DNA of 26,481 bases from a virus. A program made the position numbers and the translations under genes. The stretch is taken from IMG/VR virus record IMGVR_UViG_3300025896_000166, positions 1 to 26,481 of that record, one strand, 5' to 3'. The notes under the pieces are model-generated. The model saw only the letters and a list, made by a program, of their open reading frames with translations, was not told where the DNA came from and ran no database searches. Shown here in pieces: positions 4,745 to 22,680 of this stretch (its first letter is position 1; the number at the start of each line of letters is the position of its first letter).

Positions 4745-4746
4745 TA

Positions 4747-5397: not shown

Positions 5398-5400
5398 TGC

Positions 5401-6042: not shown

Positions 6043-6045
6043 TGC

Positions 6046-6480: not shown

Positions 6481-6495
6481 ATCATCACCTTCATC

Positions 6496-6532: not shown

Positions 6533-6548
6533 GTGTACCAAACTGCTA

Positions 6549-6995: not shown

Positions 6996-7059
6996 TTTTG
7001 AAACTCCCAGAACAATGGATTAGGTGAGTGAGGCTCATTACAAGCCTCAGTCGTACCTA

Positions 7060-8166: not shown

Positions 8167-8190
8167 TGGTAGTTCCTCATTTCAGTTGAA

Positions 8191-8388
8191 TTAAGCACTC
8201 GTGCGCTTTTTTTCTCGGCCACCCGAGAAAACCTTGTCTTTCCCATCGCCACTCTTGAGCGTAATGGGTATCGAATTGTCAGCCTCTATCACTACCCTGG
8301 CCCTTCGGCCAATTTTCTGGGTTAGGGTAATCTCTGCATCACCGATACAGATTGTGTCACCAACCCCAAAATCCAGATGAAGGCCCAT
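8191..8388 (-). CDS. CsrA-like small protein in the capsid operon
   Basis: 65 aa from ATG 8388; a GTG at 8406 is also in frame but lies inside the scaffold gene. The stop/start junction with the scaffold is TAACAATG, with GGGAG upstream inside that gene. The sequence VGDTICIGDAEITLTQKIG followed by RRARVVIEADNSIPITL aligns with the beta strands of CsrA (VGETLMIGDEVTVTVL, then QVRIGVNAPKEVSV), including the VG-[DE]-T-x-x-IGD signature at about residues 9-17. Two arginines that contact RNA in CsrA (R6 and R44) appear changed here, to Phe and Lys by my alignment. It may thus bind different RNA or serve as a structural small protein with the same fold. The resemblance is clear by eye but short. 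Confidence 0.6.
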   Translation of the reverse strand: MGLHLDFGVGDTICIGDAEITLTQKIGRRARVVIEADNSIPITLKSGDGKDKVFSGGREKKRTSA

Positions 8389-8390
8389 TG

Positions 8391-9212
8391 TTATGAGCGC
8401 TCCCACTCGTCTAGTTCGGCTTTGCTCATCCTTTCAAGAGCATTTTCAAGTGCCTCGCCAGTCAGTCGATTCAAGTGTGCAAACTTGCCGTCTTGTGGTC
8501 GCTCGCCTGCAGCTGCAGGAGCCCCGCCAATATCAGGCAACGTCTGCGGTCGGCTTGGTCGTTGCGGGCGACTGTCCGGCTTAACTGCCTCAGCCATGCC
8601 AAAAGACTTTGCCACCCTGCTGCGTGCTGCAGCCAGTATCTCCTCCCCGCTTGCATTCGCCATCTCACCACGAGCCAGCTTAATAACCTGGTTGTTCAGT
8701 GCGCTAAGCAGGATTTCGTCATCAGAGAAACGCTTATTCTCTGCTCGTGCGAAAAACTCTCCCTGCACTCGCTTCCATTCTTTGTCGCCTGCCTCTTTCG
8801 CCGCCTGATCTCTGGCCTCTGCTAAGAGGGAAGCACGTTCAATTTCGCGCTCTCGCTTCTCTAGTTCGGCAATGGCAGCACGGTATTCCTTGCTTGTCAT
8901 GTCGCCGTTGTCGAAGTCCTCGCCTGCCTGCGCCTTCTGCGCTTCAATATCGGCAAGCTCAGCAGAGTTATCCTCGACCACTACCGGCTCTACTGCAGCC
9001 GGCTCTGTAGGCTTAGTATCTACATGGGTTTCTTTGTCAGACAATCCATCAGCATCAGGATTAATACTGGTATCAGTAGCGTCAGCATCATTGTCGTCCA
9101 GGTCTAGGTCTGTATCGTCACCGTTATCAGTGACTACTTCCTCCTCGCCTTCCAGCACTTCTGCCATAGCTGCAATTTCTGCCTCTGACAGGTCGTTCAA
9201 TTCATCATCCAT
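8391..9212 (-). CDS. Putative scaffolding protein
   Basis: 273 aa. The first 100 residues are very acidic (EGEEEVVTDNGDDTDLDLDD), residues about 110-145 are a charged helix or coiled coil (AAIAELEKREREIERASLL), a Pro/Arg-rich linker follows (SRPQRPSRPQTLP), and the end carries a short helix with FAHLNRLTGEALENAL. Acidic N-terminus, coiled middle and a short C-terminal capsid-binding helix are usual for scaffolds, and the gene sits between portal and capsid. The ATG at 9212 overlaps the portal stop by eight bases, with GAGGG upstream. The role is strongly suggested by composition and position; scaffolds have little sequence conservation. Confidence 0.82.
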   Translation of the reverse strand: MDDELNDLSEAEIAAMAEVLEGEEEVVTDNGDDTDLDLDDNDADATDTSINPDADGLSDKETHVDTKPTEPAAVEPVVVEDNSAELADIEAQKAQAGEDFDNGDMTSKEYRAAIAELEKREREIERASLLAEARDQAAKEAGDKEWKRVQGEFFARAENKRFSDDEILLSALNNQVIKLARGEMANASGEEILAAARSRVAKSFGMAEAVKPDSRPQRPSRPQTLPDIGGAPAAAGERPQDGKFAHLNRLTGEALENALERMSKAELDEWERS

Positions 9213-11442: not shown

Positions 11443-11824
11443 CAATCATTTTCTCGCCATCAATGGTCACGACAAGCCGATCTCGCTCGATTAGCTTGTT
11501 GATGGCCACTTCAATTTCAGGCTTGTAGTTGAACACAAGGTCGTAATTCTTCAGTACGAAGTCCATTAGATGATGCACTTCTGTTTTTGTCAGGGAAGTC
11601 TTGAACAGGTGAGAACTGTACTGCCTGGCTGCAACGTCAATGGATTCAGGGGATAGCGCGAACTCGCCATACTTAGAAAAGGGAATGATGATTGTTCGCC
11701 TTGCCCCGATATTGCGGAGGATAAGGCTGTCCTCGTCATCAATGTTGCGGGCAAAGCCAATGATGGTGGTATTGGCTATGTTCACCGTGCGCATTGATTG
11801 TGGCGTGAAGATTGTTTCGGTCAT
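11432..11824 (-). CDS. Unrecognised protein between terminase and portal
   Basis: 130 aa, ATG at 11824, five bases after the stop of the 236-aa gene. The N-terminal half is strand-rich (TVNIANTTIIGFARNIDD, RRTIIIPFSKYGEFAL), the second half helical (TEVHHLMDFVLKNYDLVF). It has no membrane segment and no cysteine. Its end overlaps the portal start by 11 bases, so it belongs to the packaging operon. A role in packaging or portal assembly is possible from position only; I do not recognise the family. Confidence 0.68.
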   Translation of the reverse strand: MTETIFTPQSMRTVNIANTTIIGFARNIDDEDSLILRNIGARRTIIIPFSKYGEFALSPESIDVAARQYSSHLFKTSLTKTEVHHLMDFVLKNYDLVFNYKPEIEVAINKLIERDRLVVTIDGEKMIDAS

Positions 11825-11828
11825 GGGG

Positions 11829-12539
11829 CTATCTCCTTTGTAGCTGCTGAATCATTACCTTTGCCGCCACTCTGAAAATGGCGAACCTTGACCGCTCTGC
11901 ATCCGATAGCATATTGAAGCTCTTTAGCAATGGCGTTGCTTTCTCCTTGAAGCTGTACGCCTCGCCACGAGACCAGCCAATTTTGGTCATCATTTCCGAC
12001 CATATCCGATGCGACCCACTTGGCCCGCCATTGGGATTATGCAAAACGCCAGAAACCATATTTATGTACCCGCAACGCTCTGCTAAAAACTGCCCTCTAA
12101 AGTCGCTATGCCCGTATGAAGGCATGGCTACACGGTCATGCTCGTATAGGATTCGTGCGCAAGCCTCTGCGATTGAGGCAATGCCCTCATCATTGAGCGG
12201 ATTGTCGTAAGCCTCTATTTGCGCAAGGGCTACGCTTGCACGCCCGATCAGGATTGCAGATTCTTTGCTATGCTCAGCCTCCATCTTCTTGATGGCTTCC
12301 ATGTGCCTGGCCTCAGCTTCATCCAAGTCCCTGCGAGACTGCCAATAAGTCTCCTTCCTTGCCTTTCCGACAGCCTCGAAAACTGCCTTCTCCGTTATAC
12401 GCTCGCATTCCTTTGGTGTTAGCAGCTTCTCCTGCCTCTTACCCCAATAGCCGTTTGCGATAAAGTCCAGTGCGCCCCTATGCTTGCTGGCTGCGTGAAT
12501 GTCGCTGAATGCTTCTGCATCAATGCTCATGACTGTCAT
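11829..12539 (-). CDS. Unrecognised helical protein of the packaging operon
   Basis: 236 aa, ATG at 12539. Residues about 55-105 form a long charged helix, likely coiled coil (RRDLDEAEARHMEAIKKM, then EAEHSKESAILIGRASVALA). The remainder is mixed with several Trp/His residues (SYGHSDFRGQFLAERCGYIN) and a basic end. No signal peptide or membrane segment. The upstream ribosome site is weak (AGAGAAC). It is placed between terminase and the 130-aa gene that precedes the portal. I do not recognise a family; no function is proposed. Confidence 0.68.
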   Translation of the reverse strand: MTVMSIDAEAFSDIHAASKHRGALDFIANGYWGKRQEKLLTPKECERITEKAVFEAVGKARKETYWQSRRDLDEAEARHMEAIKKMEAEHSKESAILIGRASVALAQIEAYDNPLNDEGIASIAEACARILYEHDRVAMPSYGHSDFRGQFLAERCGYINMVSGVLHNPNGGPSGSHRIWSEMMTKIGWSRGEAYSFKEKATPLLKSFNMLSDAERSRFAIFRVAAKVMIQQLQRR

Positions 12540-12632
12540 TTTATTGTTCTCTGTTATGTTGATTCGGTAGATCCGCCGTCCTTGGCAGTCGTTTTCTCGA
12601 TGCTCATGGTGATTCCCTCTTGGGTTGTGGTG

Positions 12633-14069
12633 CTACATTGTTTTCCAGCTTGCCTTGCGTACTGCCCTTGCGGCTCCTGCGGGTCTAGGCTTTGACTTGG
12701 CAAAACGCCTCATCATGTAGGCGTATCGGGTTGCTGCCATTAAGTCGTCTGCCTTCTTGACCACTTTGCCGTCTTTTCGATGATACAGCCTAAACTCCTC
12801 AAACCAATCATTTAGATTGCTGAACACGCGAAACCTACCTTCTTGCATCATGTCCAGCATTTCCATTAGTCCGGCTTCTACGCCATTGCTCTTGCCATCC
12901 TCAAAGGTTGCCCGTGATGCGAGCACGGCCAGGCCATTGGCCTCATAGAGTGATGCAAGTTGGTCGCCGCTGCCCTTGTCGTGCTGCAGACCATCGTGAG
13001 GCCATGCCCAGGGTAGCCAGTCGCCCCAATGCTTGAGCGTGAGAGAGTGAATAGCTGGTGTTGCCGCCTTTAGCCGGTATGAAGCCGTGACATAGATAAC
13101 ATCGTCGTCTCTGTCCCATGCCAGCCTGACCGCAGCAGTTGGATGATCCCAGCCAAAGTCTATGCCAGCCACTTGAACCCAGTGCTTTGGGATTTCAAAG
13201 GGCTCACAAGTGATTAGTTCCTCGCTAACCGGAAAGATTCGACCGGAACCAAGTGTAGGCGTGCCGCTAGACCGCGCTTCTCGCTCGTGCGCCGGATAGG
13301 TCGCGACAATGGCATCGGCTTCTTCTTTGGTGTAATGCCCTACGTCATAAATCGTCATTACCGTGACAGACGTACCGATTGGCTTGTCCACGATAAAGCG
13401 CCGTACTACATCGGACATACCGAGCAGCGGCGTGAAGGTCATAAAGGCCATGCCGCCAGTCGCATTCGTGCGGGTCAGTCCTTCCGTGTAGATAGCTTGC
13501 GGTGGCTCCTCATCGAACCAAACCCAATCCAGTGTCTCTCCCTGCCACTTCTCGCGGCCCTTTTCGTATGACTTGAAGGTAATGCGGGAAATGTCGCCAT
13601 TAACGTGGCGTACCGTTACGCTATCAACGGCATCAGGCACGCCACGCGCCATTTTAATGTCGATAATGAGCCGCTTGGGGATTGTGCCCGTGCCAAACTC
13701 ACCAGGACGACCAAGTAAGAGTCGCTGCGTTGTCTCACGGACTGACTCAGAAGTAACGCCAGAAGCCCAACCCACGTTAGCGGACGGGAATCGCCTGCCG
13801 TTCCACCAATCAGGATAAAGGCCCGTAGCGTGATATGCAGCTTCATAGGCACCCGACCATGTTTTACCAAGTTGATTGCCAGCCATGAACAAACGTTCGC
13901 GGTCGGTCGCACCCCTGCCATGAAACTCTAGCTGCTTGTCGTAAGGACTGTATGCGGCCAGCTTGTTCTCTCGCCTGCGCTTTACCCGCTCGCGTAGGGC
14001 AATTGCTAGCTGTGTCTTTGGCGGCAGGTCTTTAATCGAGTCAGGCAGCAATGCAGTCACCTGCAACAA
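12633..14069 (-). CDS. Terminase large subunit (packaging ATPase and nuclease)
   Basis: 478 aa if TTG 14069 is used. The ATPase has Walker A AGNQLGKT (63-70) and Walker B WVWFDEE (about 183-188). The C-terminal nuclease of RNase H-like fold has GIDFGWDHPTA with Asp304, WPHDG (about 357-360) and DDLMAATRYA (441-450). The enzyme pumps DNA into the prohead through the portal and cuts the concatemer. No ATG is available before the Walker A region, so the start is TTG or GTG; TTG 14051 has AGGTGA five bases upstream and is a good alternative. The 5' end overlaps a 37-aa ORF (14041-14154), suggesting coupled, low-level initiation. Confidence 0.94.
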   Translation of the reverse strand: MLQVTALLPDSIKDLPPKTQLAIALRERVKRRRENKLAAYSPYDKQLEFHGRGATDRERLFMAGNQLGKTWSGAYEAAYHATGLYPDWWNGRRFPSANVGWASGVTSESVRETTQRLLLGRPGEFGTGTIPKRLIIDIKMARGVPDAVDSVTVRHVNGDISRITFKSYEKGREKWQGETLDWVWFDEEPPQAIYTEGLTRTNATGGMAFMTFTPLLGMSDVVRRFIVDKPIGTSVTVMTIYDVGHYTKEEADAIVATYPAHEREARSSGTPTLGSGRIFPVSEELITCEPFEIPKHWVQVAGIDFGWDHPTAAVRLAWDRDDDVIYVTASYRLKAATPAIHSLTLKHWGDWLPWAWPHDGLQHDKGSGDQLASLYEANGLAVLASRATFEDGKSNGVEAGLMEMLDMMQEGRFRVFSNLNDWFEEFRLYHRKDGKVVKKADDLMAATRYAYMMRRFAKSKPRPAGAARAVRKASWKTM

Positions 14070-14154
14070 GATTCACTGAAAATGGCTGAATAGCCGCTAA
14101 TTCGGGTAGTACGGTAACACTTTTGGCGCCGACAGTGCTGTTGTTTAATTTCAT
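14041..14154 (-). CDS. 37-aa ORF between small and large terminase genes
   Basis: Reads MKLNNSTVGAKSVTVLPELA and ends NLVAGDCIAA. It has an ATG at 14154 with GGGAG about nine bases upstream, and it fills most of the otherwise empty stretch between the two terminase genes. Its stop at 14041 lies inside the large terminase start region, next to the TTG 14051 candidate. It could be a translated leader that delivers ribosomes to the non-ATG start of the large subunit, or a small packaging protein. No homology is recognised; support rests on ribosome site and placement. Confidence 0.45.
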   Translation of the reverse strand: MKLNNSTVGAKSVTVLPELAAIQPFSVNLVAGDCIAA

Positions 14155-14191
14155 CAGGGTAATCTCCCGCGCAATCGCACTGTCAGCGCCA

Positions 14192-14731
14192 TCAATGCTT
14201 GGTCGGCCTGGCGATGCCAAGCTCCGTGCTTAATTGGTTGATAATGGCATCTAGTTGATGCTCAGACATATCTTCCAGTTTGCCGTGCAGGACTTCCTTG
14301 CGATCCACGAACATCCCAAGCTCCTTACCCAGCGGAACCAAGGCAGCTACAGCCCCACGCGAATCGAAGGAGTACGCTGGTGCCATTAAGCCATCCGGTG
14401 TCTCGACAAAGACCACGCCGCCATCCTTGTCCAAGATAGGCTCAGTCTGCATACATCGCTCAGCCACGCTCTTGAGAGAACGCATGACATAGGCTTTATC
14501 GACCATCACGTCCTCGATGATCTTTTTTGTGGCCTCAGTGTGGCTTGAAAGCTGTTCTGCGCGCAGTTCATCCATGCGAGCGGCGATCTTATGGTTCCTT
14601 AATAGCCGGCTGGCAGTCGCCTCAGACGATCTTTCAGTAAAGCCAGCCATCTTTGCAGCGCGAGCAGCCATCTCGCCCTTAGCGTGATACTGACAGAATA
14701 GTTCCCATCTATTGTTTTCAAGGCTTGCCAT
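14192..14731 (-). CDS. Terminase small subunit
   Basis: 179 aa, ATG 14731 with a strong AGGAGG site. Residues 6-50 (WELFCQYHAKGEMAARAAKM, AGFTERSSEATASRLLRNHK) have the DNA-binding helix-turn-helix pattern of Terminase_2-type small subunits, ending RMDELRAEQ. The middle is helical for ring formation, and the C-terminal EDMSEHQLDAIINQLSTEL likely contacts the large subunit. It recognises the packaging site on concatemeric DNA. It is the first gene of the leftward morphogenesis block, so its promoter should lie in 14732-14907, but I cannot point to clear hexamers on this strand. Confidence 0.88.
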   Translation of the reverse strand: MASLENNRWELFCQYHAKGEMAARAAKMAGFTERSSEATASRLLRNHKIAARMDELRAEQLSSHTEATKKIIEDVMVDKAYVMRSLKSVAERCMQTEPILDKDGGVVFVETPDGLMAPAYSFDSRGAVAALVPLGKELGMFVDRKEVLHGKLEDMSEHQLDAIINQLSTELGIARPTKH

Positions 14732-14823
14732 AGCTTCCTCCTATAATCAGTGAAGCCTAGTAATGATGCGCCTTTCCGCGATTTTGAGCAATATCATCCT
14801 GCCGTTCGTCGGCTTTATCCGTA

Positions 14824-14863
14824 TCACGGTAAATCTAGCTTTACTTGGGTATAATTACCGTGA
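14824..14863 (+). promoter_or_regulatory. Plus-strand promoter inside a 9-bp inverted repeat
   Basis: A consensus TATAAT (14850-14855) lies 50 bases before the 82-aa gene. Its -35 region at about 14827-14832 is weak (CGGTAA). The perfect arms TCACGGTAA (14824-14832) and TTACCGTGA (14855-14863) cover the -35 area and the end of the -10 box. This arrangement is typical of a repressor operator or an activator site that compensates for the poor -35. It is the only promoter-like signal for the plus-strand cassette. Dyad seen directly; regulation inferred. Confidence 0.6.
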
Positions 14864-14907
14864 GACGATTAACTCATCGAATCGGCCACAGCAAAAAGGA
14901 ATACGAA

Positions 14908-15156
14908 ATGATAAATCTCCCGAATATCACTGAAGCCAGCAAGTCCTTGTTCATTGCCTATGCAGAAGATGCGGGAAATTGGGGCGGCAATCCTTTGGTT
15001 GGTGGCAATGTAGGTGATGCTCCTGCAGACAAGGGCAACCTGACTCAACTCAAGAAGGCCGGCCTCGTAAGAACCGAAATTGAAGAAGGTAATGCTTGGC
15101 TGTTCTTCACTACCCTTGGCAAGGCCTACGCTACTCAGCTTGGCATTGAAATCTAA
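14908..15156 (+). CDS. Small winged-helix-like phage protein
   Basis: 82 aa starting MINLPNITEASKSLFIAYAE, chosen because AAGGA lies eight bases before ATG 14908. The frame also opens at 14845, but that extension would cover the promoter. The C-terminal half GNLTQLKKAGLVRTEIEE then AWLFFTTLGKAYATQLGI looks like a winged-helix recognition helix and wing; similar small proteins are known in other phages without defined function. First gene of the plus-strand cassette, so it may regulate its own promoter. The fold is inferred from pattern only. Confidence 0.78.
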   Translation: MINLPNITEASKSLFIAYAEDAGNWGGNPLVGGNVGDAPADKGNLTQLKKAGLVRTEIEEGNAWLFFTTLGKAYATQLGIEI

Positions 15157-15158
15157 AT

Positions 15159-15181
15159 AAAAAAGCCCGCTAACCACGGGC
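15159..15181 (-). terminator. Minus-direction terminator inside the plus-strand cassette
   Basis: Plus-strand AAAAAA (15159-15164) followed by GCCCG, seven-base loop, CGGGC. Read on the minus strand this is GCCCGTGGTTAGCGGGC followed by six T, a standard Rho-independent terminator. On the plus strand there is no T run after the stem. It would therefore stop transcripts entering from the lysis side and not the cassette itself. Confidence 0.65.
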
Positions 15182-15208
15182 ATATCCCAAGACTACAGGA
15201 CTAAGAGC

Positions 15209-15310
15209 ATGAGCCAGATTATAGACCACCTACCCCATGTTGCGATACTGCTAGTGATTATCGGCTTTGTTGTGTCAGACCTGATTAAGCTAACCCGCAA
15301 GAAAGTCTAG
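15209..15310 (+). CDS. 33-aa single-pass membrane protein
   Basis: MSQIIDHLPHVAILLVIIGF continues with VVSDLIKLTRKKV. A hydrophobic stretch (about residues 10-23) is followed by a basic tail, the pattern of a small inner-membrane protein with cytoplasmic C-terminus. AGGA lies eight bases before the ATG. Its first five codons (MSQI) resemble those of the next gene, which starts MSQITYQAE. Function unknown; small membrane proteins in phage early regions may affect host envelope or superinfection. Confidence 0.6.
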   Translation: MSQIIDHLPHVAILLVIIGFVVSDLIKLTRKKV

Positions 15311-15366
15311 GGCTGTTACCTGCAGTCCTACGCTTTACCACCACATACACCGTACCGGAGAACACC

Positions 15367-15684
15367 ATGAGCCAGATTACATACCAAGCCGAGCCAGAAG
15401 GCATACTGAACCTTGACAACCGAACAGCCTGCACTGGATGGACAGAAGATGCAGCTGCTCGTTCCTTTGCTGCTGGCAAGGCCGCTATTCGCGTTAATGG
15501 GGTTTGGTTTGCCCCCATGCCTACATCGTCTGGCGAGCCGCTGTACATGAATCCGCACACTGGCGCAATCGGCCCTATGGACGAGTGGGACTACATTGAC
15601 GAATCCGGCAACACAGTAAACGCCGTGGACCTGGATGAAGTCGTGCAGGTTGCCCGCCGGTATGGCGAGTGGGTCGAGCTTTAA
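15367..15684 (+). CDS. Unrecognised small cassette protein
   Basis: 105 aa, starting MSQITYQAEPEGILNLDNRT, GGAG six bases before the ATG. Acidic overall, with many Trp/Tyr (WTEDAAARSFAAGKAAIRV, GEPLYMNPHTGAIGPMDEWD). No membrane segment, no recognisable motif. It is separated by short gaps from its neighbours, with its own ribosome site. Probably an accessory early protein; no function proposed. Confidence 0.72.
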   Translation: MSQITYQAEPEGILNLDNRTACTGWTEDAAARSFAAGKAAIRVNGVWFAPMPTSSGEPLYMNPHTGAIGPMDEWDYIDESGNTVNAVDLDEVVQVARRYGEWVEL

Positions 15685-15709
15685 TAACCAATAACAAGAG
15701 TATACCACA

Positions 15710-15970
15710 ATGAGCGTAAACGTGATTTATGAAGTGAATAACCGAGGCCGTCAGCAGATCCGCAAGGCCTTGCAGCAGCATCATACCAAAGGGTTTTTCA
15801 CCGACTCTCAGGTACGGGCATGGGCAGAGGATGTAGAAAATAATCTCTGCGAGGGCAATGGCGCTTACTTCGAGATACCAGGCTTCAACACAGTGAGCGG
15901 CAGGCCGGAAGTTATCTACATTGACGACAAGGGCATCACTAAGCACGAAAGCGAGGCCGACGATGAATAA
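15710..15970 (+). CDS. Unrecognised small cassette protein
   Basis: 86 aa, starting MSVNVIYEVNNRGRQQIRKA. An N-terminal basic helix (RQQIRKALQQHHTKGFF) is followed by a mixed region (GAYFEIPGFNTVSGRPEV) and a very acidic tail (KHESEADDE). Weak AAGAG ribosome site. Its last eight bases overlap the start of the next gene, so the two are coupled. No family recognised. Confidence 0.7.
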   Translation: MSVNVIYEVNNRGRQQIRKALQQHHTKGFFTDSQVRAWAEDVENNLCEGNGAYFEIPGFNTVSGRPEVIYIDDKGITKHESEADDE

Positions 15971-16196
15971 AGTAATTTGCGTGCTGGCCAGCAAGAGCGC
16001 CGACTCTATGGTTTTCATCCTTAATACCGGAGTGTGCATACCCTTTTGCTACGATCCAGTCAGCGTAGAGTCCCTGCAGCACCAGATTGATAGCAACGAA
16101 GGGCATGGTTATGTAATCGAGTACATGGCCTTATTCGTAAACCACATTGGCCGCAACCCTGACCTTGAGTCACTACCGCTGGAGCAGACAGCATGA
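15963..16196 (+). CDS. Unrecognised small cassette protein
   Basis: 77 aa from ATG 15963 (MNKVICVLASKSADSMVFIL), which lies in GATGAATAA and so overlaps the upstream gene by eight bases; a longer frame to 15921 would overlap that gene more. Strand-rich start, then EYMALFVNHIGRNPDLESLP. It ends in the classic ATGA overlap with the next gene. No membrane segment with certainty, no family recognised. Confidence 0.68.
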   Translation: MNKVICVLASKSADSMVFILNTGVCIPFCYDPVSVESLQHQIDSNEGHGYVIEYMALFVNHIGRNPDLESLPLEQTA

Positions 16197-16675
16197 GCAT
16201 ATCAATGAAGAACTATCCGCCGCGCCCAAAGGCAACGCCAGAAATGGTGCTGCAGGCCGCTAAGCGTATCGAGGAGCTTGAGTCTTTAGAGAGCGGTAGT
16301 GCCGAGGAAATTGCTCGTTACTACCGCCCAGGCATTAGCGGATTTGAATTGGCATTGGAGCTACATAGGCGCGAGAGCTGGGAGATTCAGGATTCGTTTA
16401 TTGAGTTCTTTGGGTCACTGGATGATGCGGTTGATACTTACCTGAAAACGGCTGAGTTTGAATGGGAGCGCGAAAACAACATTAAGCCACCACTGCCTAT
16501 CGGTACTCGCGTTAAGACTTATGCAGGCATGGCCACAATCACTGGCGAACACCGTTATAGCGCCGCTACTTACCTACTGAAGCCCGATGGTCAGGATGAT
16601 GCAGCAACCAATACCAGTCGCATCCTAATGACCTTTGAGAAGGCAGAAGAAGCCGTAGAGGCGCAAAATGACTAA
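16193..16675 (+). CDS. Unrecognised cassette protein
   Basis: 160 aa, starting MSISMKNYPPRPKATPEMVL. Residues 15-80 are helical and acidic (AAKRIEELESLESGSAEEIA), then KPPLPIGTRVKTYAGMATIT and HRYSAATYLLKPDGQ form a short beta barrel-like end reminiscent of SH3-type modules. Joined to the previous gene by ATGA overlap and to the next by an eight-base overlap. No catalytic motif seen. Function unknown. Confidence 0.72.
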   Translation: MSISMKNYPPRPKATPEMVLQAAKRIEELESLESGSAEEIARYYRPGISGFELALELHRRESWEIQDSFIEFFGSLDDAVDTYLKTAEFEWERENNIKPPLPIGTRVKTYAGMATITGEHRYSAATYLLKPDGQDDAATNTSRILMTFEKAEEAVEAQND

Positions 16676-16835
16676 GCCAGCGCGAGGCCGACCGCCAAAG
16701 GCAGAAGGTGATGTATTCGTTCAGGGCTCGCTACGGCTGAATGCCGCCCAATGGGATGAGTTTAGCAAGGTTGGCGGGGTAGACTGGCTGCGAGGCGTAC
16801 TAGACCGCCGTATACGCAAGGATCAACAGAAATGA
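16668..16835 (+). CDS. 55-aa ribbon-helix-helix-like protein
   Basis: Starts MTKPARGRPPKAEG, an AT-hook-like or basic arm (RGRPPK), followed by FVQGSLRLNAAQWDEFSKVG and DWLRGVLDRRIRK. A short strand, then two helices with a Gly-Gly turn, is the pattern of Arc/MetJ-type repressors in phages. It overlaps the previous gene by eight bases and ends in an ATGA overlap with the next. It is a candidate for the protein that binds the inverted repeat at 14824-14863, but that is inference. Too small to be found by simple length filters. Confidence 0.7.
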   Translation: MTKPARGRPPKAEGDVFVQGSLRLNAAQWDEFSKVGGVDWLRGVLDRRIRKDQQK

Positions 16836-16999
16836 AGTACAGAATGAGCTTGATATGCCAGTTTTGCGGGAATCCTTTTAGTGCGCATAGGGCATCAACC
16901 GGTCAATGCCCTACCGGAAAGGCAGATCCACGGTTTAGCCACCAGGCATTCGAGCCAAAAGGCCGGACAAAGAAGCCGTTGAAGGACTGGCCAATATAA
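16832..16999 (+). CDS. 55-aa Cys-rich protein, possible zinc knuckle
   Basis: Starts MKYRMSLICQFCGNPFSAHR and continues ASTGQCPTGKADPRF. CxxC at residues 9 and 12, His19 and Cys26 could bind a zinc ion in a treble-clef-like or short ribbon. Basic C-terminal tail (KGRTKKPLKDWPI). ATGA overlap with the previous gene supports translation. Similar CxxC-type miniproteins are common in phage accessory blocks, usually without defined role. Confidence 0.65.
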   Translation: MKYRMSLICQFCGNPFSAHRASTGQCPTGKADPRFSHQAFEPKGRTKKPLKDWPI

Positions 17000-17080
17000 C
17001 TTACCCGTATACCGTAGCAAAATGCGCCCGTACCTGAAAACGGCTGTATGCCTTGCTGCGTATGGCCTTGCAGGCTTTCC

Positions 17081-17123
17081 TTGTCGGGGAGCCTTGTCGG
17101 GATGTTGTCGGGATGTTGTCGGG
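17081..17123. repeat. Four direct copies of TTGTCGGG
   Basis: TTGTCGGG starts at 17081, 17094, 17105 and 17116; spacing 13, 11 and 11 bases, the last three forming an 11-bp tandem unit TTGTCGGGATG. It fills the 143-base gap between the Cys-rich ORF and the DUF551 gene. Spacing close to one helical turn suggests protein-binding iterons or a regulatory leader; replication slippage is the plain alternative. Confidence 0.7.
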
Positions 17124-17142
17124 CAAACAAGAGGGGATTGTG

Positions 17143-17364
17143 ATGAGCGAATGGCAGCCGATAGAGACGGCACCGAAGGATGGGACTTATGTGATGGTCA
17201 GCAATGGCGGCGGGGTATGGGTCGCTAGATATAAAGGTGTTTTTGTGTCGGGATGGGTTCCGCCAATCCCATGGCAAAGCATGATGCTAAACCACGACCA
17301 CATCCCGAGCGCAAAGCGAAAAGGCCCACCAACCCACTGGATGCCACTACCGCCGAACCCGTGA
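17143..17364 (+). CDS. DUF551 protein
   Basis: 73 aa from ATG 17143 with GAGGGG upstream. It begins MSEWQPIETAPKDGTYVMV and ends PTHWMPLPPNP, the two conserved ends of DUF551 proteins common in phages of enteric and other proteobacteria. The frame continues upstream to 17053, but that extension crosses the TTGTCGGG repeats and is probably not translated. Function of the family is unknown. Part of the plus-strand accessory cassette. Confidence 0.86.
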   Translation: MSEWQPIETAPKDGTYVMVSNGGGVWVARYKGVFVSGWVPPIPWQSMMLNHDHIPSAKRKGPPTHWMPLPPNP

Positions 17365-17432
17365 CAGCGAACTGCCACTAAAAAATGGTATTGCCTCCGC
17401 CAATGAGAGAGGCATTGGAGATTAAGATTAAA

Positions 17433-17669
17433 ATGAAAATACCATGCTGGCTAAATGGCCACAGAATGATTGTCACGCAAAGATTCGGCAAGTATAGCTA
17501 CCGGGCATCCTGTATAGATTGCGGATTGATGTTCGCGGAAAGCGATCAGCTTCGACTAAGAACCTTATGGTCGTCTGAGTTTCACCGTATGTTTGAACAC
17601 TACGGCTTTAAGATTGACTACCAAGAATGGGAAGGAACCGGAGGCCGCAAGAACTACAAGCTAGTGTGA
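17433..17669 (+). CDS. Small prophage-type protein (DUF1660-like)
   Basis: 78 aa starting MKIPCWLNGHRMIVTQRFG. The opening (M-K-x-P-C-W-L-x-G-H) and CIDCGLMFAE match a small Cys-rich family found in prophages, with Cys5, His10 and the CxxC pair as likely zinc ligands. Start chosen by family; ATGs at 17385 and 17403 are in frame upstream. It is the last cassette gene and faces the holin-like gene tail to tail across 11 bases. Confidence 0.72.
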   Translation: MKIPCWLNGHRMIVTQRFGKYSYRASCIDCGLMFAESDQLRLRTLWSSEFHRMFEHYGFKIDYQEWEGTGGRKNYKLV

Positions 17670-17678
17670 TAAAGGTAT

Positions 17679-17714
17679 CTCTACCCCTTATCCGGTATAT
17701 GGATAGGGGCAGAG
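17679..17714. terminator. Hairpin at the convergent junction
   Basis: Arms CTCT-A-CCCC-TTATCC and GGATA-GGGG-C-AGAG around a seven-base loop GGTATAT, with one bulge and one mismatch. It straddles the stop codon of the minus-strand gene and lies 10 bases past the plus-strand stop. Neither side has a strong T run, so it is a candidate bidirectional terminator or an mRNA end stabiliser. Confidence 0.5.
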
Positions 17715-18061
17715 TACACCTGATTCCACACAAAGCCGCCTGCAGCCACGACGACAGCCAGGATGGCTGCAATTACCCACTTCCTCGTCTCGCGCAAGGC
17801 AGGCAGGTCGGCGTTAATAGCCTTGATCACGTCAGATTGCTTGTCTATCCGCTCGTGAACCTTCTCGATGGCCATGAAGATTCTGTCTGTAGTGTCTTTA
17901 TGGTCTGAATGCCTTATTTCAGCTAGCCTGCTTGTCTCTGCTATCAGGGAAATTGAGCGGCTGATCTCGCCTAGCGTACTCTCTACGCATACGCGCCACT
18001 CGTCATGCCGGTTCCTTGCATCCTCTAAAAGGGCAAGTCGCGTATCAGTGGTCATAGTCAT
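17681..18061 (-). CDS. Holin/XhlA-like membrane protein
   Basis: 126 aa from ATG 18061 (MTMTTDTRLALLEDARNRHD) with AAGG nine bases upstream; the frame opens earlier at 18121 but that part lies inside the previous gene. Residues 25-95 form an amphipathic helix or coiled coil (EKVHERIDKQSDVIKAINAD), then one C-terminal transmembrane segment (KWVIAAILAVVVAAGGFVW). This order of long soluble helix then membrane helix after RETRKW is typical of XhlA/hemolysin-type small phage membrane proteins. It follows the transglycosylase and membrane protein, so a holin or lysis accessory role is likely. Its stop is within the hairpin at 17679-17714. Confidence 0.7.
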   Translation of the reverse strand: MTMTTDTRLALLEDARNRHDEWRVCVESTLGEISRSISLIAETSRLAEIRHSDHKDTTDRIFMAIEKVHERIDKQSDVIKAINADLPALRETRKWVIAAILAVVVAAGGFVWNQVYSAPIHIPDKG

Positions 18062-18071
18062 GCCGCCAGCC

Positions 18072-18689
18072 TTAAAAAATAGGCACCAGCACAGAGAGAG
18101 CAGGCACTGCCTCTCCGTCAAAGTGGAATATCCCCGCCCCTGCAGATACAGAGACCCCCATCACATTGAATTGCTTAACCAGCGACAGTGAGTATCGGTC
18201 ATTGCTCGCGTAATTGGCGCTAAGCGCCAGCTTCTTGGTCTGGTAATAGCCGGCATCGCCAATGGGTATATTGATTGACTCGATAACCGTGCCATCTTTT
18301 GAGCTTGCTATAACGTCTCTATCGCCGCCAGCGTTACGCACGACAGATAGATCCACAGTTATCGCGGGGCATACTACCTGCTCCGCATGACACTTACCGT
18401 TAATGTCCGGCAAAAAAGTCTTATCAGGATGCTTTGCAGGCTGAATTGTGACGCTTACGCGCCTTTCCTCCTTGCTACCCGTTGGAATGGCATGGGGAGC
18501 GGCTGGCACAGCATCAGCAGGAACCCTGGCACTGATAACGCTACCGTCCTTCTGAATGACTTGCGGCTTGAAAGTCTCCCGCTCCATGACTGCAGGGCTG
18601 GCGGTCAGCTTCCAGTGCATGAAAGCGCCCGCCAGCAGCATCGCAATAGTCCAGATGATTGTTAAGACGAGGAACACTCTCATGCTCAT
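18072..18689 (-). CDS. Membrane-anchored lysis-block protein, unrecognised
   Basis: 205 aa with an N-terminal transmembrane segment (MSMRVFLVLTIIWTIAMLLA) and a long outside domain. The domain has a proline/alanine linker (PADAVPAAPHAIP), two cysteines in GKCHAEQVVC and a strand-rich end (RYSLSLVKQFNVMGVSVSAG). ATG 18689 overlaps the transglycosylase stop as ATGA. Position and topology fit an inner-membrane protein with a periplasmic domain, possibly in the place of an inner spanin, but it lacks the coiled coil of Rz proteins. The beta-type C-terminus is unlike known spanins to my eye. Function not assigned. Confidence 0.72.
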   Translation of the reverse strand: MSMRVFLVLTIIWTIAMLLAGAFMHWKLTASPAVMERETFKPQVIQKDGSVISARVPADAVPAAPHAIPTGSKEERRVSVTIQPAKHPDKTFLPDINGKCHAEQVVCPAITVDLSVVRNAGGDRDVIASSKDGTVIESINIPIGDAGYYQTKKLALSANYASNDRYSLSLVKQFNVMGVSVSAGAGIFHFDGEAVPALSVLVPIF

Positions 18690-19648
18690 GTCTGTAACTC
18701 AGGCTTGAAGTATCCAGTATACTTGGCCTTTCGGATGTTCATCACGTTTCGGACGTATTCACGATTGATTTCGAAGAATGATTTTCCGTACCCCTTGACT
18801 GCAATCTTGGCTTTGTAGCTTGTTTTCTCAACGTGGCCAGTCCACTTAGATTGGTCGCATCCTGGCGTAGCGCGACACAAGCGACGATCTTGGGCTAATC
18901 CGCCCAGGCCACCATTGTAAGCCGCCAGCGCCATAGCCGTATGTCCCCATTCGTTATAGGTATCTTTGATGGCGGCATGGTTGTCGCGCATTTTCAGCAC
19001 TACGGCCCGCGCCTGCATTGTTGGGTTATATCGGTCGGCCCATTGCCAGCCTCGCAAACTCTTATGTCTGGCAGTAATTTCCGTGAAGGCATTAAACTTC
19101 GGCGTGACAGTTAGCTGGCCAAGCCCAAAGCCGTACTCTCGCGCAGTCCGCAATTCAGCCCGTGGGCTCCAACACTTTGAATGAGTGAGGCTTGCGCAGG
19201 TTTCCTGCTCTACCAGCCCTGCGAGGGCATCAGGCACGACCATAGCCGGCCAGTGAGCCCGCTGCTCGGCCACTAGCGTATTGATATGAATGCTCGCATT
19301 AGCCGGCATTGCTGCTGCAGCAGGTCTGATACTTAGGATAACTGCCGCCAGCACGATGCACATTCCCAAAAACACCGTTCCAGCCCCCTGTGGCGTTGAT
19401 GCAGCGTCTCTTGCAGTCTGCCGCATACCAATTCCAGGAAACAGTAGCCGCCGCGCCACATGGGACACTGCGATCCCGCCTAGCAGCATTGCCGTGTACA
19501 CACCAAAGACTTCGATGCCTGGCTCCATTAGGGCACCAGCAAGGAAAGGCGATACCGTAAGCACGACGAAGGCCGCGAGCATGATGCCTATAACCCTGAA
19601 AGCATCAGAGGCCAGATTACAAAGTACATTTTCCATTTTACCCTTCAT
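18686..19648 (-). CDS. Membrane-anchored lytic transglycosylase (endolysin-like)
   Basis: 320 aa. Three hydrophobic segments precede the enzyme (about residues 17-40, 46-65 and 91-110), the last ending in an AAAA-type signal-like stretch. The SLT-type domain follows: LVEQETC with probable catalytic Glu149, EYGFGLGQLTV (171-181), and AMALAAYNGGLGGL. It should cleave the glycan strand with formation of anhydromuramic acid. The multi-pass anchor is unusual for an endolysin and would hold it at the inner membrane. It may be released or activated by the holin-like neighbour. Alternatively it is a DNA-entry or virion-type transglycosylase, but gene order supports lysis. Confidence 0.85.
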   Translation of the reverse strand: MKGKMENVLCNLASDAFRVIGIMLAAFVVLTVSPFLAGALMEPGIEVFGVYTAMLLGGIAVSHVARRLLFPGIGMRQTARDAASTPQGAGTVFLGMCIVLAAVILSIRPAAAAMPANASIHINTLVAEQRAHWPAMVVPDALAGLVEQETCASLTHSKCWSPRAELRTAREYGFGLGQLTVTPKFNAFTEITARHKSLRGWQWADRYNPTMQARAVVLKMRDNHAAIKDTYNEWGHTAMALAAYNGGLGGLAQDRRLCRATPGCDQSKWTGHVEKTSYKAKIAVKGYGKSFFEINREYVRNVMNIRKAKYTGYFKPELQT

Positions 19649-19672
19649 CGCACACCTCTTTAGCTTTCAACA

Positions 19673-19742
19673 CAAGCGAGGCCGGAATCGAACCGGCGAT
19701 AGGAGGCTTTCGCCCTGCTCTACCTGCTGAGCCATCTCGTTA
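19673..19742 (-). tRNA. tRNA-like element with short anticodon arm (degenerate)
   Basis: On the minus strand there is a perfect T arm (GCCGG-TTCGATT-CCGGC, 19681-19697) and a perfect D arm (GCTC, eight-base loop, GAGC, 19717-19732). A partial acceptor has CGAG paired with CTCG and one mismatch beyond. Only 19 bases separate D and T arms where about 23 are normal. They fold as GGGC-GAAA-GCCT, a tetraloop, or as an imperfect stem with a loop lacking U33. There is no encoded CCA. It is therefore a tRNA fossil, an insertion-site remnant or a non-translating tRNA mimic. Amino acid identity cannot be given. Confidence 0.5.
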
Positions 19743-19756
19743 AAAACATATTACCA

Positions 19757-19843
19757 CTACTCCTTGCACCATTCAGCACTTGGTCGGTTGCCATGCCATG
19801 CTTTATTAAAACAGTGCAGCGATTCTTCTTTCTCGGGGGTCAT
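19757..19843 (-). CDS. 28-aa ORF coupled to the lipoprotein gene
   Basis: Reads MTPEKEESLHCFNKAWHGNR then PSAEWCKE. ATG 19843 lies one base after the lipoprotein TGA (TGACATG), with AAGGA five bases upstream, an excellent ribosome site. The HGNRPSAEWC-type motif recalls tiny phage proteins of unknown role. Its two Cys and single His could bind metal. Well placed for translation, but length makes it uncertain. Confidence 0.5.
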   Translation of the reverse strand: MTPEKEESLHCFNKAWHGNRPSAEWCKE

Positions 19844-19844
19844 G

Positions 19845-20123
19845 TCAGTCCTTGCAGTACATCGAGTTGTATTTATCGTTGTCGTGCCGCCAGCCCATGC
19901 AGTGGGCAACCTCATGGGTCACGCAAGCAGGGTACACCGATGGCCGAACGATGACGGTGCACGGCTCGCCCGGATAGGCTACGGCAAGTGCGCCATCAGG
20001 TACGCCAGCATCCTGCACTGAGAAGCGTATCGTCACCGCATCACGGTCGCGGTACGGCGTTGGTGCGTCGAATATTCCGCATCCGGTCATAAACAGCAGG
20101 GTCAGGTAGCAGATGGTACGCAT
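19845..20123 (-). CDS. Small lipoprotein with matrixin-type zinc motif
   Basis: 92 aa. The N-terminus MRTICYLTLLFMTGCG is a lipoprotein signal with Cys15 as likely lipidated residue. The C-terminus has HEVAHCMGWRH (70-80), the full HExxHxxGxxH metzincin zinc site, followed by DNDKYNSMY with Met88 as Met-turn, at matrixin-like spacing. Glu71 would be catalytic, His70, His74 and His80 zinc ligands. It lacks room for a complete matrixin domain, so it is a minimal or reduced version. As an outer-membrane lipoprotein near the lysis genes it could act on envelope proteins or peptides. It overlaps the 87-aa gene by 22 bases. Motif seen directly; activity is inference. Confidence 0.8.
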   Translation of the reverse strand: MRTICYLTLLFMTGCGIFDAPTPYRDRDAVTIRFSVQDAGVPDGALAVAYPGEPCTVIVRPSVYPACVTHEVAHCMGWRHDNDKYNSMYCKD

Positions 20124-20365
20124 GGTTTTAGTCCTTTATCCGTCATCGACTCATCAGGCGGTAATTCAGATACAGCACACATTGTCAACGCCTCAACAAT
20201 TTCCGCTGGAATCCAGCCGCTCGATATGTAGTGCGTAGCCGGAGCGTTGCCTGTTGCCGACAGTTCGCTGGTGAACATGCCATCGCCGCCTGTGAATTGT
20301 GCGGCAAGGGTGCGGGCCTGTTCGGCCTTGTCAGCCGTGACGATAATCGTTGCGAAAATATCCAT
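20102..20365 (-). CDS. Small conserved-type phage protein, unknown function
   Basis: 87 aa, starting MDIFATIIVTADKAEQARTL. It has a ferredoxin-like alternation of strands and helices, with MFTSELSATGNAPATHYISS and GWIPAEIVEAL in the middle. The segment APATHYISSGW recurs in small phage proteins next to fibre or lysis genes that I know only as hypothetical. It starts two bases after the stop of the 385-aa gene (TAATCATG) and overlaps the lipoprotein by 22 bases. Confidence 0.75.
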   Translation of the reverse strand: MDIFATIIVTADKAEQARTLAAQFTGGDGMFTSELSATGNAPATHYISSGWIPAEIVEALTMCAVSELPPDESMTDKGLKPCVPSAT

Positions 20366-20367
20366 GA

Positions 20368-21525
20368 TTAGTATGCTCGGGCCTTAGAGTTGCACCATGC
20401 TTCACCTGCTGCGATCTGGCCGGCATTGCTGGCAGCGCCACGGACGATTAGCTGGTAGATGCGCCCGTTGAATGGCCGCGTTGTTCCACCACGACGACCA
20501 ATGTAGAGCGGGTAGCTGCCGTAGTTGCCGGTGCCTGCTGGCCCTGCATCGACGGTAAGCAGCGACGGAACCGCACCATTAACTTTTGGCTTTATTTCGT
20601 CTACCGCTGCTGATGCCGATAGATCGAATGCGCATGATATAACCAGCCGCGCCGTGTCTGCTGGTGCGCTTGTAGAGCGAGATGCAAGCGCGGCTCCGGC
20701 AAGCGCGAAATTGACGGCATACGGCAAGCGCGGCCACAGGATCGCCATCGACCCGGGATTTCCAGCGCCGGTCGCGCTGGATAGCTCGGCGATAATCGCC
20801 GTGTCGGCAGTTGACGCCGATTGAGCCCCCGCCCAAACAGTCATCTTGTCCGTGCCGGTGAAGTCGATGCTCGGCGTTGCCATGCCATCGTCGGTGCCGT
20901 CGAAGTTCAGGTAATACAGACCGTTGCTGTCCTGCTGTAGTGTCGGCCTGCTCGCAGATGTCGTCTGGTAGGCGTGGTTGCCGGGTAGTTCTCGGACGGT
21001 TACGTTGTCAACCGAATAAACAGCCCCAGCCGAGGCGCATGAAAAATAGAAGGCGTTTGTCCCGGTCGCTTGCCGTATGTACTTTTTATGCCCGGTTGAC
21101 CCAGTGATAGTAGTGGTTCCGCCACCGGCATCAAACCGAGCAGTGCCTGATGTATACGTCAAATCAAACTCGACTACATACCACCTACCAGATACGCAAG
21201 ATGCGCCAGTCGCTGTGGCAGTTCGTGTCGCAGTCGCGTTAAAATTTAGCGACCCGCTAGATATGGATGCTTCACTCTGGAGAACCCAGCCGTCAGCATT
21301 GTCGAAGTCGCCATTAGTGACAAGCTCCGCCCCCAACGCCAGCCCCAACCGCTTATCCAGCGCCAAGCCGACAGGCTGCCCAACAGCCGTCACAGGCGTA
21401 GTGCCTGCCGCATCCTGATACAGCGTACTGAAGTCGGACGGGTCTAGCCAGATGCCTTGCTCGCCGGACACGAATAGCGAGTTGATGTAATAGTCTTTTG
21501 GTAGCGCCCCGAGCAGCATGAACAT
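20368..21525 (-). CDS. Phage structural protein with lectin-like (LamG) domain
   Basis: 385 aa, starting MFMLLGALPKDYYINSLFVS; a second in-frame ATG at 21519 is possible. Residues 20-65 (GIWLDPSDFSTLYQDAAGTT, PVTAVGQPVGLALDKR) are a signature of phage tail or fibre-associated proteins. Residues 70-180 resemble a carbohydrate-binding jelly roll (ELVTNGDFDNADGWVLQSEA, YSVDNVTVRELPG). Residues 190-385 resemble a concanavalin A/LamG fold (LYYLNFDGTDDGMATPSIDF, YPLYIGRRGG, FNGRIYQLIV). It probably binds receptor or cell-surface glycan. It lies far from the main tail genes, beside the lysis block. Confidence 0.8.
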   Translation of the reverse strand: MFMLLGALPKDYYINSLFVSGEQGIWLDPSDFSTLYQDAAGTTPVTAVGQPVGLALDKRLGLALGAELVTNGDFDNADGWVLQSEASISSGSLNFNATATRTATATGASCVSGRWYVVEFDLTYTSGTARFDAGGGTTTITGSTGHKKYIRQATGTNAFYFSCASAGAVYSVDNVTVRELPGNHAYQTTSASRPTLQQDSNGLYYLNFDGTDDGMATPSIDFTGTDKMTVWAGAQSASTADTAIIAELSSATGAGNPGSMAILWPRLPYAVNFALAGAALASRSTSAPADTARLVISCAFDLSASAAVDEIKPKVNGAVPSLLTVDAGPAGTGNYGSYPLYIGRRGGTTRPFNGRIYQLIVRGAASNAGQIAAGEAWCNSKARAY

Positions 21526-21529
21526 GGCT

Positions 21530-21880
21530 TTATACCAGTCGAAGGCCGATTTTATACTCGTATTCTGCCGCCGCCGGAGCAGGTAGCTTCACACGAATAT
21601 ACGGAGGGAGCGCCATAGGATTCATTGCAGGCGGAATGTCGGTTAGCTTGTTGGCTGCAACAGGGAATGTCTTTGCTATACCCACTGAGTCCAATACGTC
21701 GAACCCTGCATCAGCGCCGCCAGCAAACGATCCTTGAATAGCGCAGGAAGTCTGGTTTGCACCGGTTGGGGCATAAATACCGACAATGGCTAGCCGCTCG
21801 GAATCAATAGATCCGAAAGAAGAAGTCGGAATCCATGCGGAAGTCGTGCCGGAAGCTGGAATAGTGGCAGTAATATACAT
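21530..21880 (-). CDS. Small structural-type protein behind a regulatory hairpin
   Basis: 116 aa from ATG 21880 (MYITATIPASGTTSAWIPTS), with AGAGGA about eight bases upstream; the frame also opens at 21916 but lacks a ribosome site. Beta-rich, with YAPTGANQTSCAIQGSFAGG and a C-terminal PPYIRVKLPAPAAAEYEYKI, as in small virion proteins of phages. It directly precedes the lectin-like gene, to which it could be a partner. Both its ribosome site and start codon are inside a strong hairpin (21878-21917), pointing to translational control. No family name can be given. Confidence 0.72.
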   Translation of the reverse strand: MYITATIPASGTTSAWIPTSSFGSIDSERLAIVGIYAPTGANQTSCAIQGSFAGGADAGFDVLDSVGIAKTFPVAANKLTDIPPAMNPMALPPYIRVKLPAPAAAEYEYKIGLRLV

Positions 21881-21917
21881 GACGCAATCCTCTGATATTG
21901 CCAGAGAATGCGTCATG
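21878..21917 (-). promoter_or_regulatory. Hairpin covering ribosome site and start codon
   Basis: In the minus-strand transcript, CATGACGCA pairs with TGCGTCATG (nine perfect pairs) and, inside, CTCTG pairs with CAGAG around a seven-base loop. The inner arm holds the AGAGGA ribosome site and the outer arm ends on the AUG of the 116-aa gene. The fold would block initiation in long read-through transcripts, and a transcript starting within it would not be blocked. The outer arms could also be a DNA operator. Confidence 0.65.
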
Positions 21918-21925
21918 CGGTTTTG

Positions 21926-22393
21926 TCAGGCTATAGCTTCCTGAATGAGTCTGTTTACGTTCGTTTCCCAGATTGCCTCATCCTTTGGCATGGTGAAATT
22001 ATGCTTTATGGCTAGATACTCGCATATCTTGAAGGCGGCAACCTCCCATGTTCGCGCAAACTGGACGCTGTTGTCGCACTCTCTAAGGGCAATAGCCCTT
22101 GTTCGCTGAACCAGCTTAACGGCTGATGGTATGGCGGTCGGCTTCTTCATCTCAATGTAAAGCCCAATGTGATTGTCCGTCCTGCTGGCCATTGGCAGGT
22201 GATAATCAGGCATACCGGCTTTGACTCCCTCGCCATTCATAATGCCAGCCTCGGTTGCGTTTCTCTTGCCGCCATTCGGGATATGGTAAAGAGCGTCTGA
22301 TAGCATCAGGCCATTATCTAGCTTAATAAGCCTCGCCCACTTCATTAGCGCCAGGCACTCATTTGACTCATCATGGCAGATCTTCTTTATCAC
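21926..22393 (-). CDS. VRR-NUC family nuclease
   Basis: 155 aa, starting with GTG 22393 in a GTGA overlap with the previous gene. Conserved VRR-NUC features are an N-terminal helix ECLALMKWARL, LYHIPNGGKRNATEAGIMNG, EGVKAGMPDYHLPMA with the catalytic Asp of PDY, and GLYIEMKKP with the Glu-x-Lys pair. These nucleases act on branched or flapped DNA; phage members are used in recombination and junction processing. It follows the NinB and HNH genes, supporting a recombination block. The C-terminal third is a helical extension. Confidence 0.9.
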   Translation of the reverse strand: MIKKICHDESNECLALMKWARLIKLDNGLMLSDALYHIPNGGKRNATEAGIMNGEGVKAGMPDYHLPMASRTDNHIGLYIEMKKPTAIPSAVKLVQRTRAIALRECDNSVQFARTWEVAAFKICEYLAIKHNFTMPKDEAIWETNVNRLIQEAIA

Positions 22394-22680
22394 AATAACC
22401 CCTTAACCTTCTCTAGTAACTCTGACTCAGTGCCAAAAATTGACTCCCAAGTGAATCTTCCCGCATGAATGGCAATGCATGGCCCACCGGTACGATGATG
22501 AGTAGGGCATAGCGGTATAACGTCAAAATGGCTTGCCTTCTTTCCCATGCCGACTCCGTGCCTCGGATGATGCGCCTCTGCAGGCGAGTCTTGATGCCCC
22601 ATGTCCCTGCAAACAATACAGCCAAGCCTCACTACGGCTGAAACGTGGGCCTTCTCTGCCTTATTCATTGCCTTGCTCAT
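22390..22680 (-). CDS. HNH nuclease, Ref-like (RecA-dependent nuclease family)
   Basis: 96 aa. Motifs: CIVC (21-24), AEAHHPRHG (35-42), HFDVIPLCPTHHR (51-63), and IHAGRFTWESIFG (71-83). These correspond to the zinc-binding and catalytic HNH positions of the phage P1 Ref C-terminal domain, which cuts DNA at RecA-bound D-loops. P1 Ref has an additional N-terminal part that is missing here. Joined by ATGA to NinB and by GTGA to the VRR-NUC gene, so all three are co-translated. Ref-like assignment is good; RecA dependence is from the family. Confidence 0.82.
   Translation of the reverse strand: MSKAMNKAEKAHVSAVVRLGCIVCRDMGHQDSPAEAHHPRHGVGMGKKASHFDVIPLCPTHHRTGGPCIAIHAGRFTWESIFGTESELLEKVKGLL

Follow-up and report, generated by a model that had tools for sequence, protein, structure and literature searches.

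The lipoprotein gene and its surroundings

The stretch of viral DNA considered here (the window; 26,481 nucleotides of IMG/VR record IMGVR_UViG_3300025896_000166) carries a run of minus-strand genes that encode, in reading direction, a LamG/lectin-like protein of 385 amino acids, an 87-aa protein, a 92-aa lipoprotein, a 320-aa holin-like/endolysin protein, a 205-aa transmembrane protein and an XhlA-like protein (Table 1). The lipoprotein, whose translation is MRTICYLTLLFMTGCGIFDAPTPYRDRDAVTIRFSVQDAGVPDGALAVAYPGEPCTVIVRPSVYPACVTHEVAHCMGWRHDNDKYNSMYCKD, starts at an ATG with AAAGGA just upstream. A sequence-only reading of this DNA had described the open reading frame without naming a strand; the frame is real and lies on the minus strand, and the plus strand of 19845-20123 is interrupted by a stop. 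The residues picked out by that reading (H70, E71, H74, H80, M88 and the lipobox MTGC15) are all found where it placed them. Cys15 is followed by Gly, and a glycine after the lipobox cysteine would favor the outer membrane.

Table 1. Features of the window at and around the lipoprotein gene
Feature	Position	Strand	Basis
385-aa LamG/lectin-like protein, probably tail-associated	20368..21525	minus	Laminin_G_3 E 0.0027, below cut-off
87-aa protein, overlaps lipoprotein gene start	20102..20365	minus	no family match
92-aa lipoprotein gene, minimal zincin-like, phrog_27783 lineage	19845..20123	minus	ORF; phrog_27783 E 7e-7; five-lipoprotein profile 33.9 bits
Lipobox-like M12-T-G-C15	20079..20090	minus	sequence; lipobox also in five of the closest full-length homologues
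Putative zinc motif H70-E71-V-A-H74-C-M-G-W-R-H80	19884..19916	minus	sequence; H70, E71, H74, C75 invariant in alignment A5 (largely pattern-derived, see text)
Met88, proposed Met-turn	19860..19862	minus	not conserved
28-aa ORF MTPEKEESLHCFNKAWHGNRPSAEWCKE directly after the lipoprotein stop codon, 3' remnant of a WHG-type homologue	19757..19843	minus	DNA identity to L196; phrog_27783 profile 68-88
Degenerate tRNA-like sequence between lipoprotein and endolysin genes	19674..19741	minus	Rfam tRNA 26.6 bits, gathering score 29
320-aa lysis protein: three hydrophobic segments (about 19, 47, 89), then transglycosylase-type endolysin domain	18686..19648	minus	phrog_669 endolysin 1.9e-24
205-aa protein, one N-terminal TM segment	18072..18689	minus	position of the annotated i-spanin of phage Sonora; no family match
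146-aa XhlA-like protein, C-terminal TM segment	17681..18121	minus	Pfam XhlA 6.9e-5, below cut-off

The earlier description of the gene as a neighbor of lysis genes holds within the window, because the product of the next same-strand gene downstream carries a phrog_669 endolysin domain; relatives of this 320-aa protein are annotated as endolysins or SAR endolysins. It may be a natural fusion between a holin-like membrane portion, with two or three hydrophobic segments, and a transglycosylase-type endolysin. In the stretches scanned for lipoprotein-like frames (minus strand 17000-22500 and plus strand 14000-17700), 19845-20123 is the sole example, and no second one was found near the gene. The tRNA-like sequence has recognizable D- and T-arms and a shortened anticodon arm, and ARAGORN called no tRNA there. 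Farther away, positions 2627-4744 (minus strand) encode a 705-aa, probably tail-associated protein in which collagen-like GxxGxx repeats occur along with several units that resemble one another (SAYELAVxxGFxGxxxxW). Another IMG/VR contig, 3300006805_000246 (L007), is 99.9% identical to window positions 2632-15221 (12.6 kb) and ends before the lysis region.

A family of small phage lipoproteins

Residues 1-76 of the window protein match positions 1-74 of the 88 in phrog_27783 (PHROGs v4). The window protein shows both marks of membership, a profile match over most of the length and an HExxHC helix with a downstream His and Cys, and the best members are phage lipoproteins of 88-99 amino acids with the arrangement C-x-I...HExxHC...H. 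Although members occur in well over 60 IMG/VR contigs, the family has no functional annotation in PHROGs and no Pfam match, and no description of it came up in a limited search of the open-access literature.

A tblastn search of phages and plasmids with the window protein returned nothing useful, and the genome matches L003-L006 were discarded as chance, the matched peptide VQDAGVPDG belonging to aldehyde dehydrogenases. The degenerate DNA pattern HE..HC....WHG recovered 26 stretches, nearly all of which encode small exported proteins. This WHG type is equivalent to phrog_27783, as judged from the matches of L181 (2e-19), L184 (6e-13) and L173 (1e-10). L181 is a full-length homologue, also of 92 amino acids, with 31% identity to the window protein over residues 1-90. 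A profile built from five homologous lipoproteins gives the window protein a score that was not equaled in 1000 shufflings of its mature part, and on this basis we place it in the WHG type. Searching with L181 by tblastn, and thus independently of the motif pattern, yielded AKA61210.1, a homologue in the cultured Pseudoalteromonas phage H103 that keeps HE, H, C and the third His. At loci with related terminases, a motif scan found no family gene and phrog_27783 gave weak partial matches only.

The window protein and the other phrog_27783 members, including the H103 protein, have in common their size, the lipobox (seen in L173, L181, L182, L184 and H103), a strand Cys, the C-x-x-HExxHC helix, a third His and a C-terminal Cys. 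They differ in the position of the third His, which follows the first by 10 residues within GWRH in the window protein and by 11 residues within xWHG or xFH elsewhere. Thus, in alignment A5 the nearly invariant third-His column of the homologues falls on window position 81, one residue beyond His80. Fourteen of the 16 rows of A5 were obtained with HE..HC....WHG; because WHG belonged to the search pattern, conservation within the type is best read from the H103 homologue and the profile rather than from the pattern matches. A search with the pattern HE..H..GWRHD had no match, and hence no close relative with the exact window motif was found.

The window appears to have housed a second member of the family. 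Over its last 69 bp (19757-19825), the 28-aa frame shows 95.7% identity with the end of the L196 gene of WHG type, which reads ...CIAHESLHCFNKAWHGNRPSAEWCKVDK, and no other common stretch was detected between L196 and the window. We therefore take the window to carry the tail of a second homologue that has lost its first zinc His. The simplest reading of this arrangement is that one variant was replaced by another at the same locus, which would suggest that the lipoprotein slot itself matters. L196 and contig 3300006805_000246 bear the same metagenome number.

A second and larger group of sequences, here called the GW type, carries an HExAHCxGWxH helix. With the degenerate DNA pattern HE[VILMF]AHxxGWxH, 47 viral stretches were recovered against an expectation of about one (roughly estimated from the size of the collection and the length of the pattern), and most of the matches are small phage ORFs that end at the motif, usually with a signal peptide or lipobox; several members have no recognizable signal peptide. 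When the third His was left free, 26 further stretches appeared, nearly all of them true members in which the motif reads GWPxDH or the like. The set amounts to about 55 distinct sequences, 48 in native order and 7 permuted, and one clade has pN/pS values of 0.12-0.45, indicating constraint. Concatenated GW-type queries had no match in the phage collection. Homologues with a lipobox are also encoded chromosomally in 2 of 399 Pseudomonadota genomes (L170 and L171), so the family is not exclusively viral, though rare in cells; both proteins have C-terminal extensions of well over 100 residues and identical neighbors, a phosphatase-like gene and a gene for a secreted protein of 185-195 amino acids.

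The permuted members (L094, L106, L114, L115, L117, L124 and L125) have the HExxH helix near the N-terminus, followed by the PPxxY...C...GC part. In L124, the native profile matches positions 66-101 first and 19-65 second. After rotation back to native order, L124, L106 and L094 score 51, 46 and 41 bits, whereas their shuffled counterparts reach at most 34, 32 and 28.5, and these profile scores support the view that some GW-type members are circular permutations of others. The two types themselves are likely to be homologous. This relationship is unproven because similarity between the window protein and the GW type is confined to the motif helix: the window protein scores 26.5 bits against the GW type, whereas shuffles of its N-terminal part that keep the motif reach 31.7, and similarity beyond the motif is thus not demonstrable.

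Putative active site and fold compared with metzincins

The HExxHxxGxxH motif of metzincins (HExxHxxGxxH/D) spans residues 70-80 of the window protein. One could suppose that so short a motif arose by chance in a protein without zinc chemistry, all the more as the resemblance to the GW type is restricted to it. We regard this as hardly credible. The motif occurs once in the window against a mean of 0.0015 per window in residue-shuffled versions of its ORFs, and the family match covers the whole length and extends beyond the motif. The sequence-only reading had proposed that homologues lacking the histidines or Glu71 would expose a chance motif; when a search of the GW type imposed neither the first His nor the Glu, both were nonetheless kept by each of the 13 true members, and the other five matches were unrelated or out-of-frame sequence. 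A third His is present in 48 of the 49 aligned native-order sequences (window included), the exception being L143, and lies either at G+3 (10 residues after the first His; 24 sequences) or at G+5 (12 residues; 24 sequences). Hence the expectation that homologues would conserve the proposed zinc site and Met-turn holds for the first His and Glu in the GW type and for a third His with lineage-dependent spacing, and fails for M88. Together with the lipobox and the family match, these data support the description of a small, probably lipid-anchored, phage-encoded protein with a conserved HExxH...H site.

The same data do not favor a matrixin. A Met-turn at matrixin spacing had been proposed, and the Met is indeed present as a letter; however, M88 distinguishes the window protein from the other phrog_27783 members: at this column the closest homologues (L181, L182, L184, L196 and the H103 protein, L199) have Glu, Asp or a gap. 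Moreover, most of the 49 aligned sequences have only 0-4 residues after the third His (median 3 in the GW type). Because M88 is not conserved and GW-type sequences stop so soon, the Met-turn of the window protein is probably coincidental. Pfam matches to Peptidase_M10, Reprolysin_5 and M57 are confined to the motif region and stay below threshold (11.7 bits against a curated 24 for M10, 19 against 27 for Reprolysin_5).

For the window protein, AlphaFold predicts strands at 31-34, 45-48 and 56-59 and a helix at 66-75 (pLDDT 71, pTM 0.61). In this model, which is of moderate confidence, three strands and one long helix stand in place of the five-stranded N-terminal subdomain and C-terminal subdomain of metzincins. 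Neither it nor the model of the permuted L124 has a significant PDB match, and there is no metzincin among the 50 PDB matches listed for the window protein. The weak viral matches are IrrE-like and SprT-like zincins. The L124 model, most of whose core exceeds a pLDDT of 90, comprises a strand at 28-34, the HExxH helix at 40-51, a strand at 85-90, a helix at 92-98 and a strand at 104-109, which are the elements of the window model in swapped order. The window family thus shares HExxHxxGxxH with matrixins and other metzincins and differs from them in lacking a conserved Met-turn and a C-terminal subdomain, in having three rather than five modeled strands and in its variable third-His spacing. 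Since the Met-turn is not conserved among homologues, we read the window protein from its sequence as a minimal zincin-like domain and not a matrixin. The family, so far known only as an unnamed PHROG, is best filed among the zincins as a variant outside the metzincins.

The cysteines vary together. All 28 aligned native-order sequences with HExxHC also have the strand Cys of C-x-I, and among those without the HExxHC Cys, others carry Cys pairs elsewhere, a pattern that fits alternative disulfides in an oxidizing compartment. An undescribed class of minimal zincins might even be envisaged, with a disulfide-stabilized core of about 70 residues and no Met-turn, tolerant of permutation and of a sliding third ligand, and repeatedly placed by phages in the host envelope as an aid to lysis. 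We consider this broader idea doubtful.

Possible roles and known counterparts

Membership in a widespread, unnamed phage family makes it probable that the lipoprotein is a genuine enzyme, one that aids the phage in perturbing the envelope of the cell. More specifically, and tentatively, we favor a late-made, lipid-anchored zinc metallopeptidase of the envelope that is accessory to lysis. The protein would be produced late, together with tail and lysis proteins, and would be anchored in the host envelope, probably on the periplasmic side, in the inner leaflet of the outer membrane. Removal of the signal peptide would leave about 78 residues, predicted to form a three-stranded sheet and one HExxH helix, in which His70, His74 and His80 would hold zinc and Glu71 would activate water. 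Disulfides (probably C54-C75, perhaps C66-C90) may take over the stabilizing role of the missing subdomain. Cleavage of one or a few host envelope proteins, or of a wall-associated lipoprotein, could then make lysis more complete, with the lipoprotein assisting holin, endolysin and spanins. Against this proposal stand the modest model, the members without signal peptide, the lack of a third His in L143 and a weak wider link to lysis.

Constant proximity to lysis genes, as the sequence-only reading had anticipated, is observed only in the window's own lineage, where the family gene lies between lectin-like tail genes and the lysis cassette. In L196 the genes after the family gene encode a holin (4e-13), an enzyme of the lysozyme type and an Rz-like spanin. 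The idea is rejected for the wider set, since lysis genes lie within roughly 1 kb in only about 7 of 49 non-redundant GW-type records (L096, L100, L106, L124, L150, L154 and L156), and other members are near terminase, DNA-metabolism/DNA polymerase or ParB/methyltransferase genes. Such variable neighborhoods, and the replacement at the locus implied by the second-homologue remnant, are also what would be seen for accessory genes such as morons, and the lipoprotein might instead exclude other phages from the infected cell through its envelope, for example by cleaving or masking a receptor. Small lipoproteins are a classic form of phage exclusion proteins, and three family members are weakly similar to the Cor exclusion family. 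This similarity is nevertheless restricted to the signal peptide, masking would not need an invariant HExxH, and in the closest lineage the gene sits among same-strand late tail and lysis genes rather than in a separate moron unit. We therefore judge exclusion unlikely.

The adjoining endolysin genes in the window, L100, L154, L156 and L196 could also point to an accessory wall enzyme, a zinc metallo-hydrolase with peptidoglycan or its peptides, rather than proteins, as substrate, and a membrane anchor would hold such an enzyme close to the wall. To our knowledge, however, phage wall peptidases use M15, M23 and NlpC/P60 motifs rather than HExxH, and no wall hydrolase was matched by family or structure, which makes this reading improbable. 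Slightly less probable still is a virion- or tail-associated protein whose HExxH domain aids a tail or lectin module at adsorption or serves as a processing protease. Lectin-like or tail genes precede the family gene in the window, H103, L181 and L182 (in H103 a LamG gene lies directly upstream with a 4-bp overlap, and in L182 a LamG-like gene lies two places upstream), and such genes are found immediately upstream in L098, L134 and L159 as well. Yet virion proteins are not usually directed to the envelope, as this one is by its signal peptide and lipobox, and other relatives are found away from tail genes.

A spanin-like function had been raised as well. As the only lipoprotein-like ORF found around the lysis region of the window, the protein could be imagined as the outer-membrane o-spanin, and the downstream 205-aa transmembrane protein occupies the place that the i-spanin has in phage Sonora, a likeness of position only. 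Nevertheless, this role is very unlikely, because relatives adjoin spanin genes of their own: an Rz-like gene and a separate Rz1-like lipoprotein gene in both L096 and L150, and an Rz-like gene in L196. Furthermore, the protein would be globular, with four cysteines and a conserved HExxH, and is neither proline-rich nor equipped with a coiled coil.

If the lipoprotein is active as the lysis-assisting peptidase that we favor, it would be among the smallest natural metallopeptidases and would add an unrecognized accessory step to the lysis of Gram-negative cells by phages. The naturally permuted versions would offer an experimental handle on the minimal zincin fold needed for zinc catalysis. That metallopeptidases of about 100 residues are possible is evident from the minigluzincins and selecase (about 110 amino acids); these differ from the window family in that no His immediately following the active-site helix serves as their third ligand, and they gave no sequence match. 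Small HExxH domains are also found in the Acidothermus zincin 3e11 and in SprT-like, ImmA/IrrE-like and ArdC-like proteins, all among the best, though weak, structural matches. SprT-like, IrrE-like and ArdC-like proteins are cytosolic, and in our comparisons they are unrelated in sequence to the window family. The SprT-like, ImmA/IrrE-like and ArdC-like proteins have been described as minimal zincins of phages (PMC7824862).

The closest functional precedent for a role in assisting lysis, by analogy, is Mtz of Listeria, a phage-derived secreted metzincin whose gene is often located downstream of holin-lysin genes and which boosts phage-mediated lysis in a manner that requires its HExxH Glu (PMC8235301). 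Like the window protein, Mtz of the Mtz-Tim pair combines HExxHxxGxxH with an export signal, a phage origin and an accessory gene. Unlike the window protein, it acts in a Gram-positive host, has a true Met-turn, and is the larger of the two, since its active-site Glu is residue 136. Mtz is paired with a TIMP-like lipoprotein, and in the scanned stretches near the window gene no second lipoprotein-like ORF was seen; the likeness is drawn from its description rather than from sequence (PMC8235301).
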